Assembly (NCBI GenBank): GCA_945901405.1
Contig: CAMDLH010000002.1
Location: forward strand, 20,227-84,226
From: Bordetella parapertussis
GTDB lineage: Bacteria; Pseudomonadota; Gammaproteobacteria; Burkholderiales; SG8-41
Direction: 5' to 3'
Length of the DNA: 64,000 nucleotides
Part shown: piece after piece, positions 19,630 through 28,697 of the stretch
How positions within the stretch are numbered: the first letter of the stretch is position 1
Layout of the letters: each line of letters starts with the position of its first letter
The notes under the pieces: generated by a model
The model's database searches: none
What the model saw: the letters and a program-made list of their open reading frames with translations, nothing else
Told to the model about the DNA's origin: nothing
Translations under genes and position numbers: made by a program

Positions 19630-20625
19630 TCATAATACTTTGCCATGTAACGATGCGATCAATTTGTCCGGGACGGTGAACCGTCCCGGCCGAAGGGACG
19701 GCGGTACTGTGCCCTCAATGGTTTCAATTTTTTCCACAGGGTCGGCGTGAAGATACATTTCTGTCGTTTGCATAAAAGCGTGACCAAGCCATAACGAAAC
19801 CTTTCGCAAATCGCCGGTCGCCTGGTAAATCATCATGCCGCAGGTGTGTCGAAGCACATGAGGGGAAACATTCTTTCGCTCCAGCGTCGGACAGATCGGC
19901 GTAGCGACCCGCACATATTTGTCGAGTAAATATGCAAATCCGACCCGAGTCATGGACTCGCCCCTTGCATTGACGAAGAGTTCGGGCGTCGAGACGTTGC
20001 CCCGCACTGCCAGCCACGCTCGAATATCACTCGCGGTTTGTTTCCACAATGGCAGCGAGCGCTGCTTCCGTCCCTTGCCCATGACTGAGATCGTTGGTGT
20101 TGGCTGCAATGTCACCGCGTTGAGCCATAAACCAAGCAGTTCGGATACCCGAAGTCCGGTAGCAAAGCCAAGGTGCAGCATTGCCCGGTCGCGAATTCCT
20201 GAGCGAGTCCGGACGTCCGGTGCATTCAGGATCGCTTCCATCTCGGTTTTGGTGAGGTAGCTGATCAACGGGATGTCTGTTTTTTTTGATGGAATCGCAA
20301 GAATGCGCAGGCTTTGGTTAAGCACAGATGGCACGCGGTGCTCGACAAAGCGCATAAAAGATTTGATCGCAGCCAACCGGATATTGCGGGTGCGCGGGCT
20401 GTTACCTCTTTGCGATTCGATATACGCAAGAAAGTCCATAACCAGTGACGCATCCAGCTGCTCCAGGCACAGTTTGGAGGGCGTCGCCTTGAAGCGCTGG
20501 CTGGCGAACTCGAAGAACAACTGATAGGTATAGGCATAGCTTTCACAGGTATGGGGACTCGCTCCGAGCTGTACGGGCAGTCGTTCGCGCAAGAAAGCGG
20601 TGATATGAGGCGCAATCGGGGTCAT
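19630..20625 (-). CDS. Tyrosine recombinase, third member of a RIT-like trio
   Basis: A full-length 331-aa tyrosine recombinase. An N-terminal SAM-like core-binding domain (about 1-110, with GASPHTCESYAYTYQ) is followed by a catalytic domain with R159 (ATGLRVSELLG), K184 (GKGRKQR), H256 and R259 (HVLRH), H282 (LGHAFMQTTEMYLH) and the nucleophile Y291, so all catalytic residues are present. I start at the ATG at 20625: AGGAG lies upstream, and the ATGA overlaps the stop of the preceding recombinase remnant. The gene lies within 31-bp inverted repeats. It may still be active on them. Confidence 0.88.
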   Translation of the reverse strand: MTPIAPHITAFLRERLPVQLGASPHTCESYAYTYQLFFEFASQRFKATPSKLCLEQLDASLVMDFLAYIESQRGNSPRTRNIRLAAIKSFMRFVEHRVPSVLNQSLRILAIPSKKTDIPLISYLTKTEMEAILNAPDVRTRSGIRDRAMLHLGFATGLRVSELLGLWLNAVTLQPTPTISVMGKGRKQRSLPLWKQTASDIRAWLAVRGNVSTPELFVNARGESMTRVGFAYLLDKYVRVATPICPTLERKNVSPHVLRHTCGMMIYQATGDLRKVSLWLGHAFMQTTEMYLHADPVEKIETIEGTVPPSLRPGRFTVPDKLIASLHGKVL

Positions 20626-21220
20626 GGCTGATCTCCTGTTATGAAGGATTCGCACCTGTCGGCGATGTCTGTCATGAGTAGTGGGGTGCTCTCAAGGTAC
20701 CAGTAGGTACTCTTCGGGTGAGCGTGCCCCATGTAGGTGCCGAGCGCGAGCATATGGCGTGCGATGCGGTCCCGAGTATCGGGACATGACTAAGCGTACT
20801 ATCCCGGACGCCGCGCTGTGTCCGCATCCATTCCATAAATTCCAACAACAGGACCGGGGATTCAGCCAAACAAGGGGACGCGCAAGAAATTACAGCCCCG
20901 GTCGCTTCAAGGAAATCCACAAAAACACGGGAACCATGGTAGGCAGAGCTATGGTCGCCATTCGGCTTCCGAAGCACCCCTCGCTTCGCGAGGGCGTTCT
21001 GATATCGATGCAGCGTGTCTTGATCTAAATCACACACTGTTAGTCCATCCGCTTGTGCCCAGGCTGCGCAACGATGGGCCTCACGGGCATGACTGCGGAT
21101 GCATGCGCGGCGATATCCGCGGATTTCCAGCCACTTGATGAACTGAGCTAAATGACCACCAGCCGGTCCAGACTGAAATGCCGCGAGCGTACGGGGATCT
21201 TTGAAATAAGTTGCCAGCAT
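20622..21220 (-). pseudogene. Deletion fusion of first and second RIT-like recombinases
   Basis: From the ATG at 21220 (AAGGAG upstream) the frame reads MLATYFKDPRTLAAF through a SAM-like N-terminal domain to QRGVRDSTLS. It then goes out of frame near 20800 and the track ORF ends in unrelated residues. Read in the other frame, the DNA from about 20785 to the TGA at 20622 encodes RHMLALGTYMGHAHPKSTYW and YLESTPLLM, the C-terminal tail of the second trio member, with its catalytic histidine and tyrosine. One deletion therefore removed the first catalytic domain and most of the second gene. This cannot make an active recombinase. Confidence 0.75.
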
Positions 21221-21342
21221 GTTGCTCTCCTTCAAGGGTCACGCCCTGAAAGACAGCAGCATTATGGAAAGAAGATCAGGGCTTTCTCGATCAAAAAGGC
21301 CTCAGCAACGAGCCTATTGCCACCGCCTACCAACAGCTTACC

Positions 21343-24229: not shown

Positions 24230-25192
24230 TCAATCGGCGGTAATGTTGTTATCCCTCACCACCCTGGCCCAGCGCGCGTAGTCCTCGCGCACCACCTTGC
24301 CCATCAACTCCGGCGTACCGCCGGCAACATCGGCACCCTGCGCGGCGAAGCTCTTCTTGAACTCGCGGTCGTCGAGTATCCGGTTCATCGCGGCATTCAG
24401 CGTGCCGATAATGGCGCGTGGCGTGCCGCGCGGCGCAAAAATGCCGTACCACGTATACACCACGTACCCCGGCACGGTGTCCTGCACCGGGGGCGCGTCG
24501 GGCAACTCCGGCAAGCGTGTGTTGCCCGTGACCGCCACCGCGCGCAGGCGGCCCGTCTGATAGTGCGCCATCATGGATGCAGCCGGATTGACGATGACCG
24601 GCGTGCGGCCCGCGAGAATGTCGGGCATCGCGGCACCCGCGCCCTTGTACGGCACGTGGGTCATGCGCACCTTCGCCATGTTGAGCAGCAGTTCGGTTGC
24701 CAGATGCGTGAGGCCGCCAATGCCGGTGCTGGCGTAGCCGAGCGCGCCGGGTTTGGCGCGCGCAAGATCGAGCAGCGCCGGCATCGCCGCCGGCAGCGAC
24801 GGATGCACCGACACCACATACGGCGCGGCCGCCACCTGACTTACCGGCGCAAGACTGCTCAACAATGCGTAGGAAGATTTGCGTAACGCCATCGCCGCCG
24901 CGTAACTCGCCGACGAAAACAGTATGGTGTAGCCATCGGGCGCGGCAGTCGCGGTGAGCTCCATGCCGATCAGCCCGCCACCGCCGCCGCGATTGTCGAT
25001 CACGAATTGCTGCCCGATACGTTCCGACAGCTTGGCGGCGCTCTGGCGCGCGAAAATGTCGGCGCCGCCGCCGGCGACGAAGGGGACGATCACGCGGACC
25101 GGGCGCACAGGGTACGCTGGCAACTGGGCGCGCGTCTCACCCGCGAATCCGCATCCCGCGAGTGCCGCGCCGGCGAGCAAGTGCCGCAGCAT
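24230..25192 (-). CDS. Bug family receptor 4
   Basis: A 320-aa Bug receptor. The true start is the ATG at 25192 (MLRHLLAGAALAGCGFAGETRAQ), not the track's 25414, whose extra 74 residues are a shadow of the upstream gene. The mature part starts LPAYPVRPVRVIVPFVAGGGADIFAR, with VIDNRGGGGGLIGME and APDGYTILF. Its ATG shares one base with the stop of Bug receptor 5 (TGATG), so the two are translationally coupled. That implies the two receptors are made together and may bind related ligands. Confidence 0.9.
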   Translation of the reverse strand: MLRHLLAGAALAGCGFAGETRAQLPAYPVRPVRVIVPFVAGGGADIFARQSAAKLSERIGQQFVIDNRGGGGGLIGMELTATAAPDGYTILFSSASYAAAMALRKSSYALLSSLAPVSQVAAAPYVVSVHPSLPAAMPALLDLARAKPGALGYASTGIGGLTHLATELLLNMAKVRMTHVPYKGAGAAMPDILAGRTPVIVNPAASMMAHYQTGRLRAVAVTGNTRLPELPDAPPVQDTVPGYVVYTWYGIFAPRGTPRAIIGTLNAAMNRILDDREFKKSFAAQGADVAGGTPELMGKVVREDYARWARVVRDNNITAD

Positions 25193-26172
25193 CAGTCGAT
25201 CTTGATCCCCGCCGCGCGAACGACCTCGAGCCACTTCCTGCTTTCGCTGGCGATAAACCTCGTCACGTCCTCGGGGGCGCCGCCCATGACGGTCACGCCC
25301 ATGTCCGTCACGCGCTTGCGGAAGACCGGGTCTGCGAGTGTCTGATTGATCTGCCTGTTGAGCTTGGCGATAACTGGCTTGGGGGTTCCGGCAGGTCCCA
25401 TGACCGTGTACCAAGTACCCGCTTCGAGTCCGGGCAGACCTGCCTCGGTAGTGGTCGGCACCTCAGGCAGCACGGCGGTTCTGACGGACGACAGCACCGC
25501 CAGCGCACGCAGGTTGCCCGCCAACGCCTGCTGCGCGACCGCCGGCAGCAGGTGAAAAATAAGCTGGGTGCGGTTGGCCATCGTATCCTGCGTGGCAAGC
25601 CCCGGCGACACATAAGGTATGTGGCGCATTTTTGTGCCGGTCATCTTCTGGAACAGCTCCGAGGCCATGTGCATGCTGCTGCCGTTACCGGCGGAGGCGT
25701 AATTGAGTTCGTCGGGGCGACCCCTGGCATACTGGGTGAATTCCGCCAGCGTGCGCGCTGGTATCGACGGATGCACCACCAGCACGTTTGGCACGGCGCC
25801 AAACTTGATGACCGGCGCGAAGTCCTTTTGCGGGTCGAAGCCCAGCGATTTGTAGACGTGCGGGTTGATGGTGAAGGTCGTTCCCGATGCGAACAACAAT
25901 ACGTAGCCATCCGCGCTGGATTTCGCCGCGAGCGCCGTGCCGATATTGCCGTTGCCGCCGCCGCGGTTGTCGACGACGAATTGTTGTCCCAGCGCCTTGG
26001 TCAGCGCATCGGCGAGCAGGCGGCACGACGGATCACTGCTGCCGCCCGGCGGGAACGGATTGATCATGCGCACCGGGCGCAGCGGATAACTCCTCGCCTC
26101 GTCCGCAGCCTGCACAACAACGGAAAAGAGCGCGATTCCGAGCGATAATACGATTCGTACGATTCGTTTCAT
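25192..26172 (-). CDS. Bug family receptor 5
   Basis: A 326-aa Bug receptor with signal peptide RIVLSLGIALFSVVVQA. The mature start is SYPLRPVRMINPFPPGGSSDPSCR, in which Asn replaces the usual Val before PF and the ligand loop carries SSDPSCR rather than TDxxAR. VVDNRGGGNGNIG and SADGYVLL follow. This loop change suggests a different ligand from neighbouring receptors. It is first of a coupled pair with receptor 4 and diverges from the Rid-domain gene across 98 bases. Confidence 0.91.
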   Translation of the reverse strand: MKRIVRIVLSLGIALFSVVVQAADEARSYPLRPVRMINPFPPGGSSDPSCRLLADALTKALGQQFVVDNRGGGNGNIGTALAAKSSADGYVLLFASGTTFTINPHVYKSLGFDPQKDFAPVIKFGAVPNVLVVHPSIPARTLAEFTQYARGRPDELNYASAGNGSSMHMASELFQKMTGTKMRHIPYVSPGLATQDTMANRTQLIFHLLPAVAQQALAGNLRALAVLSSVRTAVLPEVPTTTEAGLPGLEAGTWYTVMGPAGTPKPVIAKLNRQINQTLADPVFRKRVTDMGVTVMGGAPEDVTRFIASESRKWLEVVRAAGIKID

Positions 26173-26270
26173 GACGATCCTCGCAGCGTGGGCGGCGGCT
26201 CAAATTATGCACCAATCGCAGGTAGCCGATGCTGGTGAGGACCAATCTTCAGTTTCGGAGGCAAGCGCGC

Positions 26271-27575
26271 ATGGCCAGAAGCAAGCAAACCACGGTCAGG
26301 GTCATCAACCCTGTCACCATAAACCAAGGCAACATCCGCTACGCACCAGGCATACGCGCGGGACGCTGGGTGTTTGCCACCGGGCATAAGGGCACGGCGG
26401 ATTACACGGACGGGATGTCAGCAGCAGTCATGCGCGAAGCCGCGCCGCATTGGGACAAACCCAAGCTGCGGCGCGAAGCCGAACAGATCTTTCGCAATGT
26501 CGGCGGCGTACTGAAAGCTGGCGGCAGCAATCTGCAAAGCATCGTGCGCGTCGACCAGAACTACACCTCCGGCCGCGCCGTCGAGTCCTACCATGACGCC
26601 CGCCGCGCCATACTCAAGGACCATATCCCGCCGAGCACCTCGACACTGACGCAGGGTTTTCTGCTGCCGGGGCAGGAAATCGAGGTGCACATGATCTGCA
26701 TCGTGCCACAGGGCGAATTTCGTCCGCGGCACATACGGCCGGCGGACCAGTCGGTGCACCACACCTCCGGCTACAGCCTTGCGCTCGCCGCCGGCGATTA
26801 CGTGTTCGTTGCCGGGCGCATGGCGGATTCGTTCACGTTCGGCGAGGGGCTCGCGCAGGAGGCACGCATGCCCGAAGGCCATTTGTGGAAAGGCCTGCCG
26901 ATCAAGCTGCAAGCCGAATTCATCATCCGTGAAAAACTGATTCCTACACTAAAAGCCGCCGGCTCTTCGCTGAAGAACGTGGTGAAGTGCCAGGTCTATA
27001 TGCGCGACATCGAGGATTTCGCCGCGTTCAACGAAGTGTGGGATGCGTTTTTCCCGACCGCGAAGCCCGCGACTACGCTGATACCCGCCGCGACGCCGGG
27101 CTTTTTCCTGTCCGATGCGCGCATCGAAATCAACACCATCGCGTTGCGCGACGAAGGCAAGACGAGAAAGCAGATCATCGACGCAGGCGTGAGCACCGCA
27201 TTTGCGGGCTATACGCAAGCGGTGCGCGCCGGCGACCTGCTGTTCATCTCAGGCATGCTGGCCGCGGACCGCAATGGGTTGATCGAGGGCGCGCGCATAG
27301 CTCCGGCGCAACCGTATCTTGGCTCCAGCGTGCAGGCGCAGATGGATTACCTGCTCACCAGCGCGCAGAAGCTCTGCAAGGCAGCGGGCGCCTCGCTCGC
27401 CAACGTCGTGCGCATCCAGCAGTTTCATACCGACCTGAAGGATTTTTATCCGGCGTATCAAACATGGCAGCAACACCTGCCGGGGCAGCACCTGCCGTTC
27501 TCCGCCGTGGAGGTGCCGTTTCTACCGGTGCCCGGCTGCACGGTGCAGCTCGATCTGTGGGTGTACGCGCCGTAG
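26271..27575 (+). CDS. Triple Rid (YjgF/YER057c/UK114) domain fusion protein
   Basis: A 434-aa protein made of three successive Rid-fold units: about 8-145 (APGIRAGRWVFATGHKG to EIEVHMICI), 165-300 (SLALAAGDYVFVAGRM to RIEINTIAL) and 315-434 (TQAVRAGDLLFISGML to VQLDLWVYAP). RidA deaminates reactive enamines through an arginine in the P-A-R-S motif. At that point the three units have STS, PATT and PFS, so none keeps the arginine. I start at 26271 because GGAGG lies 10 bases upstream. Divergent from the Bug 5-4 pair. Its role may be binding or a different hydrolytic reaction. Confidence 0.85.
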   Translation: MARSKQTTVRVINPVTINQGNIRYAPGIRAGRWVFATGHKGTADYTDGMSAAVMREAAPHWDKPKLRREAEQIFRNVGGVLKAGGSNLQSIVRVDQNYTSGRAVESYHDARRAILKDHIPPSTSTLTQGFLLPGQEIEVHMICIVPQGEFRPRHIRPADQSVHHTSGYSLALAAGDYVFVAGRMADSFTFGEGLAQEARMPEGHLWKGLPIKLQAEFIIREKLIPTLKAAGSSLKNVVKCQVYMRDIEDFAAFNEVWDAFFPTAKPATTLIPAATPGFFLSDARIEINTIALRDEGKTRKQIIDAGVSTAFAGYTQAVRAGDLLFISGMLAADRNGLIEGARIAPAQPYLGSSVQAQMDYLLTSAQKLCKAAGASLANVVRIQQFHTDLKDFYPAYQTWQQHLPGQHLPFSAVEVPFLPVPGCTVQLDLWVYAP

Positions 27576-27713: not shown

Positions 27714-28697
27714 ATGAAGACTGCGCCTGTCGTATTCGTGCTCACCGCTACCGCCGCTACGTTTAGCCTTGCAGCCACTGCATTCGCACAGAACTATCCG
27801 GCCCGGCCGGTCAGCATCGTCGTGCCGTTTCCCGCCGGCGGCCCCACTGACACCATCGCGCGCATCATGGCCGAGCGCATGACGCGCGCGCTTGGCCAGT
27901 CGGTGCTGGTCGAGAACCCCACCGGCGCTGGAGGCACCATCGGCGCCGGCAAGGTGGCGCGCTCACCGCCAGACGGTTACACCGTCGCCATAGGACACAT
28001 CGGCACCCATGTGATCAACGGCGCGATTTACCAACTGCCGTACGACGTGTTCAAGGATTTCCAGCCGATTGCGATGATCGCGAGCAATCCCCAAGTACTA
28101 GTGTCGAAGAATGCGGTCTCGGCGAAGGACCTGAAGGAACTGATCATTTGGGTGCAGGCGAACCAGAACAAGGCAACTATTGCAACCGGCGGCCCCGGCA
28201 CGCCCTCGCACGTGAGCGGGGTGTACTTCCAAAAGGTCACCGGCACGCAGCCGCAGATCGTGCATTACAGGGGCGGGGCGCCGGCAATGCAGGACGTGCT
28301 GGGCGGCCAGATCGACCTCTTTTTCGACCAGGCCGCAACCGCCCTGCCGCAGGTGCGCGGCGGCAAGGTGAGGGCTTACGCCGTAACCGCGAAATCGCGT
28401 CTCGCCGCCGCCCCAGAAATTCCGTCGATGGATGAAGCGGGGCTGCCCGGCTTCTACATGGCCGTCTGGCACGGCATGTGGTTACCCAACGGTGCCGCGC
28501 CCGCTGTCGCGGCACGACTGAACACCGCGATTATGGAAGCTCTGGCGGACTCTACGGTGCGGCAGCGGCTTGCCGACCTCGGTCAGGAAATTCCGCCGCG
28601 CGAACAGCAGTCGCCCGATGCACTACGCGCTCACCACAAGGCCGAAATCGAAAAGTGGTGGCCTGTGATCAAGGCCGCCGGGATCAAGGTGGAGTGA
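27714..28697 (+). CDS. Bug family receptor 6
   Basis: A 327-aa Bug receptor starting at the ATG at 27714 (GAGGAG upstream) rather than the track's 27657. The signal peptide is FVLTATAATFSLAATAFAQ. The mature part has NYPARPVSIVVPFPAGGPTDTIAR, VENPTGAGGTIGAG (Asn-Pro-Thr in place of the common DNRxGA) and PPDGYTVA. It follows the triple Rid gene by 138 bases on the same strand, so the Rid protein may handle the compound that this receptor binds. The 277 bases after it hold no recognisable gene. Confidence 0.91.
   Translation: MKTAPVVFVLTATAATFSLAATAFAQNYPARPVSIVVPFPAGGPTDTIARIMAERMTRALGQSVLVENPTGAGGTIGAGKVARSPPDGYTVAIGHIGTHVINGAIYQLPYDVFKDFQPIAMIASNPQVLVSKNAVSAKDLKELIIWVQANQNKATIATGGPGTPSHVSGVYFQKVTGTQPQIVHYRGGAPAMQDVLGGQIDLFFDQAATALPQVRGGKVRAYAVTAKSRLAAAPEIPSMDEAGLPGFYMAVWHGMWLPNGAAPAVAARLNTAIMEALADSTVRQRLADLGQEIPPREQQSPDALRAHHKAEIEKWWPVIKAAGIKVE

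Follow-up and report, generated by a model that had tools for sequence, protein, structure and literature searches.

The 64-kb stretch of DNA that we analysed (hereafter the window), from an uncultured betaproteobacterium, encodes a 434-aa protein in which three Rid units follow one another in one chain and none of them carries the catalytic arginine of RidA (Arg105). The gene lies at 26271..27575 on the plus strand, and about 40 homologues have the same three-unit layout, which places the arginine-free triple-Rid pattern far beyond chance. Our results showed that this family is real and restricted to one lineage.

The open reading frame was taken from the ATG at 26271; a further in-frame ATG is present at 26229, and the alignments of the close homologues begin at 26271. 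When the 434-aa chain was searched against Pfam, Rid (PF01042) was the sole family matched (136.7 bits), and no fused DNA-binding or signalling domain was found. The NCBIfam model TIGR00004 scored 108.8 bits against a cut-off of 106.25 bits, with its match split over three stretches of the chain. A preliminary description of this DNA, made from the letters alone, had claimed three consecutive Rid units, and this was borne out when the units were cut apart and scored as separate pieces, as each one surpassed the PF01042 cut-off of 27.3 bits (32.8, 61.5 and 54.1 bits for units 1, 2 and 3, respectively). Unit 1 comprises aa 8-150 (26292..26720, with the PF01042 match at 26337-26702), unit 2 aa 151-296 (26721..27158, match at 26766-27146) and unit 3 aa 297-434 (27159..27572, match at 27198-27554), all on the plus strand. 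PF01042 was matched by all 42 of the aligned family members. A decayed or accidental open reading frame was ruled out by the full-length homologues, in which both the layout and the invariant residues are kept.

The structure predicted by AlphaFold2 from a 42-sequence alignment (pLDDT 93.0, pTM 0.92) displayed the succession of helices and strands that is typical of a Rid fold three times within one assembly, in agreement with the three folds initially described, and the pTM indicates confidence in how the units are placed relative to one another. In a fold search of the PDB, RidA-type structures matched the single units with TM values of 0.8-0.87 of the target length. In AtRidA of Arabidopsis, K136 and E182 form an inter-subunit salt bridge (PMC4960622), and by our own alignment K136 is equivalent to Lys73 of RidA. 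This position is occupied by Arg93 in unit 1 (26547..26549), Lys239 in unit 2 (26985..26987) and Arg381 in unit 3 (27411..27413), all on the plus strand and each present in 39/39 members of the main family; an arginine or lysine at this place in all three units fits an intramolecular trimer. The model and the conserved salt-bridge position support the view that the protein would be a covalent pseudo-trimer built from a single chain. While this part of the preliminary description gained support, the idea itself dates from 2015, when covalently linked trimers were proposed for proteins named '3x-RidA', such as EF_0115 from Enterococcus faecalis (Niehaus et al., 2015; PMC4433059).

At the position of Arg105 we found the motifs PPSTS in unit 1, PATT in unit 2 and PFSA in unit 3, just as the earlier reading of STS, PATT and PFS had stated, and the alignment showed no arginine there in any unit of the 39 main-family members (0/39). 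Instead, the residue is Ser or Thr in unit 1, Thr, Leu or Val in unit 2, and Phe, Leu, Tyr or Ile in unit 3. An arginine at an offset position was not conserved in these 39 members either, and a distant relative that does have arginines (the L071 protein, see below) has them at the aligned position. The pocket of TdcF is made up of Tyr17, Gly31, Asn56, Asn88, Arg105, Pro114 and Glu120, among which Asn88 sets the orientation of Arg105, and Glu120 extends over the subunit boundary to residue 107 (PMC1884159). Only Gly31 is common to all three units in the 39-member alignment. On the other hand, several polar residues at cleft positions are invariant in one particular unit. Unit 1 has the motif P[ST]TS in all 39 members, with Ser122-Thr123-Ser124 (26634..26642, plus strand) at the place of RidA residues 105-107; Ser122 is found in 37/39 members, the others having Thr, and both Thr123 and Ser124 in 39/39. 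His108 of unit 1 (26592..26594, plus strand) stands at the position of the arginine-orienting Asn88, also in 39/39. The equivalent of Glu120 is invariant in unit 2 only (Glu286, 27126..27128, plus strand; 39/39), is present in 25/39 members in unit 1 and is absent from unit 3.

Rid proteins that lack Arg105 have lost their imine deaminase activity entirely or almost so, and the activity is absent or nearly so in the Arg-to-Ala variants of RidA and RutC (PMC8113886, PMC4433059). By analogy with these published mutants, it is unlikely that the triple-Rid protein is an imine deaminase, and we infer that the arginine-free protein may have a new function.

Next, we consider the distribution and history of the family. 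Many genomes of uncultured Burkholderiales encode full-length homologues, with identities of 38-79%, and the named relatives are betaproteobacterial MAGs. At E<=1e-30, a match was obtained in 26 of 149 related genomes and in 2 of the 369 genomes of a class sample, the source genome counted; with the family profile at E<=1e-40, 15 of 399 genomes were matched in an order sample and 1 of 399, the source genome itself, in a phylum sample. Spread by plasmids was rejected, as the plasmid records gave no match to the triple-Rid protein at 1e-20 and no record covering 80% of the query. In a tree, units 1, 2 and 3 formed three separate clades across the family, and each unit scored 225-238 bits against its own profile and 26-57 bits against the profiles of the other units. 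The triplication is old relative to the spread of the family.

The source genome carries a second full-length copy on contig C143 (58% identity) as well as a distant triple-Rid protein of 425 aa on contig C157 (L071:1241-2515, minus strand; ~28% identity), with three PF01042 units and Bug genes on both flanks. The latter has an arginine at the aligned position in two of its three units (PPARTT in unit 1 and PPGRAS in unit 2), so that arginine-bearing and arginine-free triple-Rid proteins are found in one genome. On whether the window protein and the L071 protein are circularly permuted relative to each other, the tree and the unit-to-unit scores disagree. The arginine was also missing from 7 of the 12 single-domain Rids examined in the source genome, as we read the aligned motifs. 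A second type of triple-Rid protein, of 461 aa and with 22-25% identity, was found at the locus L064; its model is also one assembly (pLDDT 88, pTM 0.91). Two divergent triple-Rid proteins without the arginine (L115:4987-6363 and L119:1176-2567) share 23-28% identity with this second-type protein, and their sequences suggest that several triple-Rid lineages exist in these Burkholderiales.

The preliminary description had related the protein to adjacent Bug receptors, and their presence was confirmed. A Bug/TctC solute-binding protein gene lies divergently at 25192..26172 (minus strand; PF03401, 218.6 bits), another at 24230..25255 (minus strand; PF03401, 185.2 bits), whose start is uncertain, with the longest open reading frame beginning at 25414, and a third directly downstream of the triple-Rid gene at 27714..28697 (plus strand; PF03401, 192.2 bits). 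Farther away are genes for an NHL-repeat protein, a molybdopterin oxidoreductase subunit, another Bug protein and a TctA membrane subunit. With 18 Bug/TctC genes in the 64 kb of the window and 84 in 800 kb sampled from the source genome (about 10 per 100 kb), Bug genes are so common in this genome that the neighbours in the window alone prove little. Extrapolation gives about 675 such genes in 6.4 Mb, an estimate made on a draft assembly with 6.8% contamination. This estimated number is above the 434 Bug/TctC genes of Rhodoplanes sp. Z2-YC6860, which were reported as unprecedented (PMC5994714).

When all the loci were considered, a Bug gene was located within 600 bp of 35 of the 49 triple-Rid genes, on either side of the gene and in either orientation, compared with 26 of 120 background open reading frames of at least 300 aa (Fisher p about 2e-9) and with 11% of random 1.3-kb positions, a comparison in which the 49 loci share ancestry and are hence non-independent, at least L066 and L114 are one locus counted twice, and the background was drawn from one genome. 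Eight loci of one clade (L048, L049, L050, L052, L053, L054, L074 and L076) have the order triple-Rid, Bug and single PF14588 Rid (157-163 aa), and in L055 and L056 a single PF14588 Rid gene is divergent and upstream of the triple-Rid gene. Genes for an amidohydrolase, a second-type triple-Rid protein, a single Rid, a Bug protein and a triple-Rid protein occur together in L064 (G050:C42:112000-127000) and L065 (G028:C192). L065 also has two additional single Rids on the opposite strand. Besides Bug and Rid genes, no recurring enzyme gene that points to a pathway was found in the clade of the window protein. Altogether, the context favours a catabolic role tied to the ligands of the Bug receptors.

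We tentatively propose, as a reading that falls a little short of probable, that three anciently diverged Rid units, all of which have lost the imine-deaminase arginine, are joined as a single-chain pseudo-trimer that would work as a cytoplasmic enzyme on a class of substrates, probably small carboxylates, which the adjacent Bug receptors would bring into the cell. We suggest less confidently that the three clefts between the units may be non-equivalent. One of them would have been rebuilt, with His108 and Ser122-Thr123-Ser124 of unit 1 replacing Asn88 and Arg105-Ser106-Cys107, and would face Glu286 of unit 2, the counterpart of Glu120 in RidA. Such a cleft might carry out chemistry of a water-activating, hydrolytic or isomerising kind without a carboxylate-binding arginine, and the remaining two clefts could be structural or have another role. 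What points to a single specialised cleft is the paired change in unit 1 (Asn88 to His and Arg105 to Ser/Thr) together with a glutamate that is invariant only in unit 2. The broader proposition, that these proteins constitute a new enzyme family of obligate single-chain Rid pseudo-trimers in which the loss of threefold symmetry gave rise to an arginine-independent cleft, encoded in catabolic loci with dedicated Bug receptors, is possible and rather doubtful.

The protein might instead have remained an imine or enamine deaminase in which another carboxylate anchor replaces Arg105. Suitable candidates are Arg93 and Arg111 of unit 1, which are invariant (Arg93, 39/39) or nearly so, and the single-domain Rids of the source genome that also lack the arginine indicate that its loss is tolerated in this lineage; moreover, catabolic operons often contain working Rid proteins (PMC8113886). 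However, Arg93 aligns with Lys73 of RidA, which is a structural residue (PMC4960622), and the near loss of activity in the arginine-less Rids and variants mentioned above also weighs against this explanation, which we regard as unlikely. The same low likelihood is given to a non-catalytic protein that would bind ligands or regulate, as a cytoplasmic sensor or stabiliser of the compounds imported by the Bug receptors, with no turnover. Such a role would be congruent with the retention of Gly31 alone from the TdcF pocket in all three units, and some Rid proteins do have non-enzymatic roles (chaperone activity cited in PMC4433059), but the Pfam search revealed no DNA-binding or signalling domain joined to the Rid units, and the invariance of His108, Thr123, Ser124 and Glu286, each in its own unit, suggests chemistry and not decay.

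Cyanuric acid hydrolase and barbiturase (AtzD/TrzD/barbiturase, the Toblerone fold) resemble the window protein in that three YjgF-like units are concatenated in one chain with pseudo-threefold symmetry, and amidohydrolase-family genes lie close to several of the homologues. Given that the same evolutionary trick is used, the window protein could be conceived as a ring-opening amidase with its active site in the central barrel, as in AtzD, which has a potential Ser-Lys dyad per unit. Nevertheless, the profile search gave no match to the AtzD/TrzD family at E<=1, no AtzD chain was present among the 60 PDB sequence matches listed (E<=10) or among the listed fold matches, and a Ser-Lys pair repeated in each unit was not apparent among the columns conserved at 95% or more. 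An AtzD-type hydrolase was rejected for want of a sequence match, and a ring-opening amidase of this kind is very improbable.

A Bug-linked pseudo-trimer with one specialised cleft, the reading that we prefer, also has to be set beside the Rid proteins already described. The 3x-RidA proteins, which are a subset of the RidA proteins, likewise have three tandem Rid domains in one chain, and about 10% of RidA proteins have Ser in place of the arginine (PMC4433059). Unlike the RidA subfamily, the window protein lacks Arg105 in all of its units; its three units are very different from one another, and nearly all of the family members found come from a single group of Burkholderiales genomes. The subfamilies Rid4-Rid7 lack the catalytic arginine as the window protein does, and their function is an acknowledged open question, but fused triples are not described there. 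Rid4 and Rid7 have Trp at the position of Arg105, a residue found in none of the units of the window family, and the description of Rid5 and Rid6 (a variable residue at 105, with the glutamate kept) fits unit 2 alone.

The best fold matches in the PDB for the whole chain were chorismatases of the FkbO/Hyg5 type (5ag3 and 4bps), with TM values of 0.57-0.58 of the target length over ~390 aligned columns, 12-18% identity and an rmsd of 5-6.5 A. No chorismatase chain was present among the listed sequence-profile matches, and the likeness is in fold only; chorismatases perform a different chemistry on a related fold. In a viral fold library, the significant matches were mostly YjgF-family proteins of Pandoravirus, the best of them a protein of 387 residues with TM values of 0.54/0.60.

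The absence of the arginine from all three divergent fused units, in combination with the Bug link, was not found in the literature searched. While the three-in-one idea was already known, the lineage-restricted, arginine-free, Bug-linked family of 3x-Rid proteins with three divergent units is new. The clefts of a homotrimer are identical; in a fused chain they can differ and be mutated singly, which makes this family a clean way to ask what a Rid cleft does without the arginine. Beside AtzD and 3x-RidA, it would be a further case of innovation by fusing the subunits of a Rid trimer. The adjoining Bug receptors offer an experimental handle on the substrate, and the family is a good target for enzyme discovery.

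Finally, the window contains a tyrosine recombinase gene (PF00589) at 19633-20655 on the minus strand, behind which lies a second recombinase-like open reading frame, possibly truncated. The pair spans 19630-21235 (minus strand) and is possibly the trace of a mobile element.
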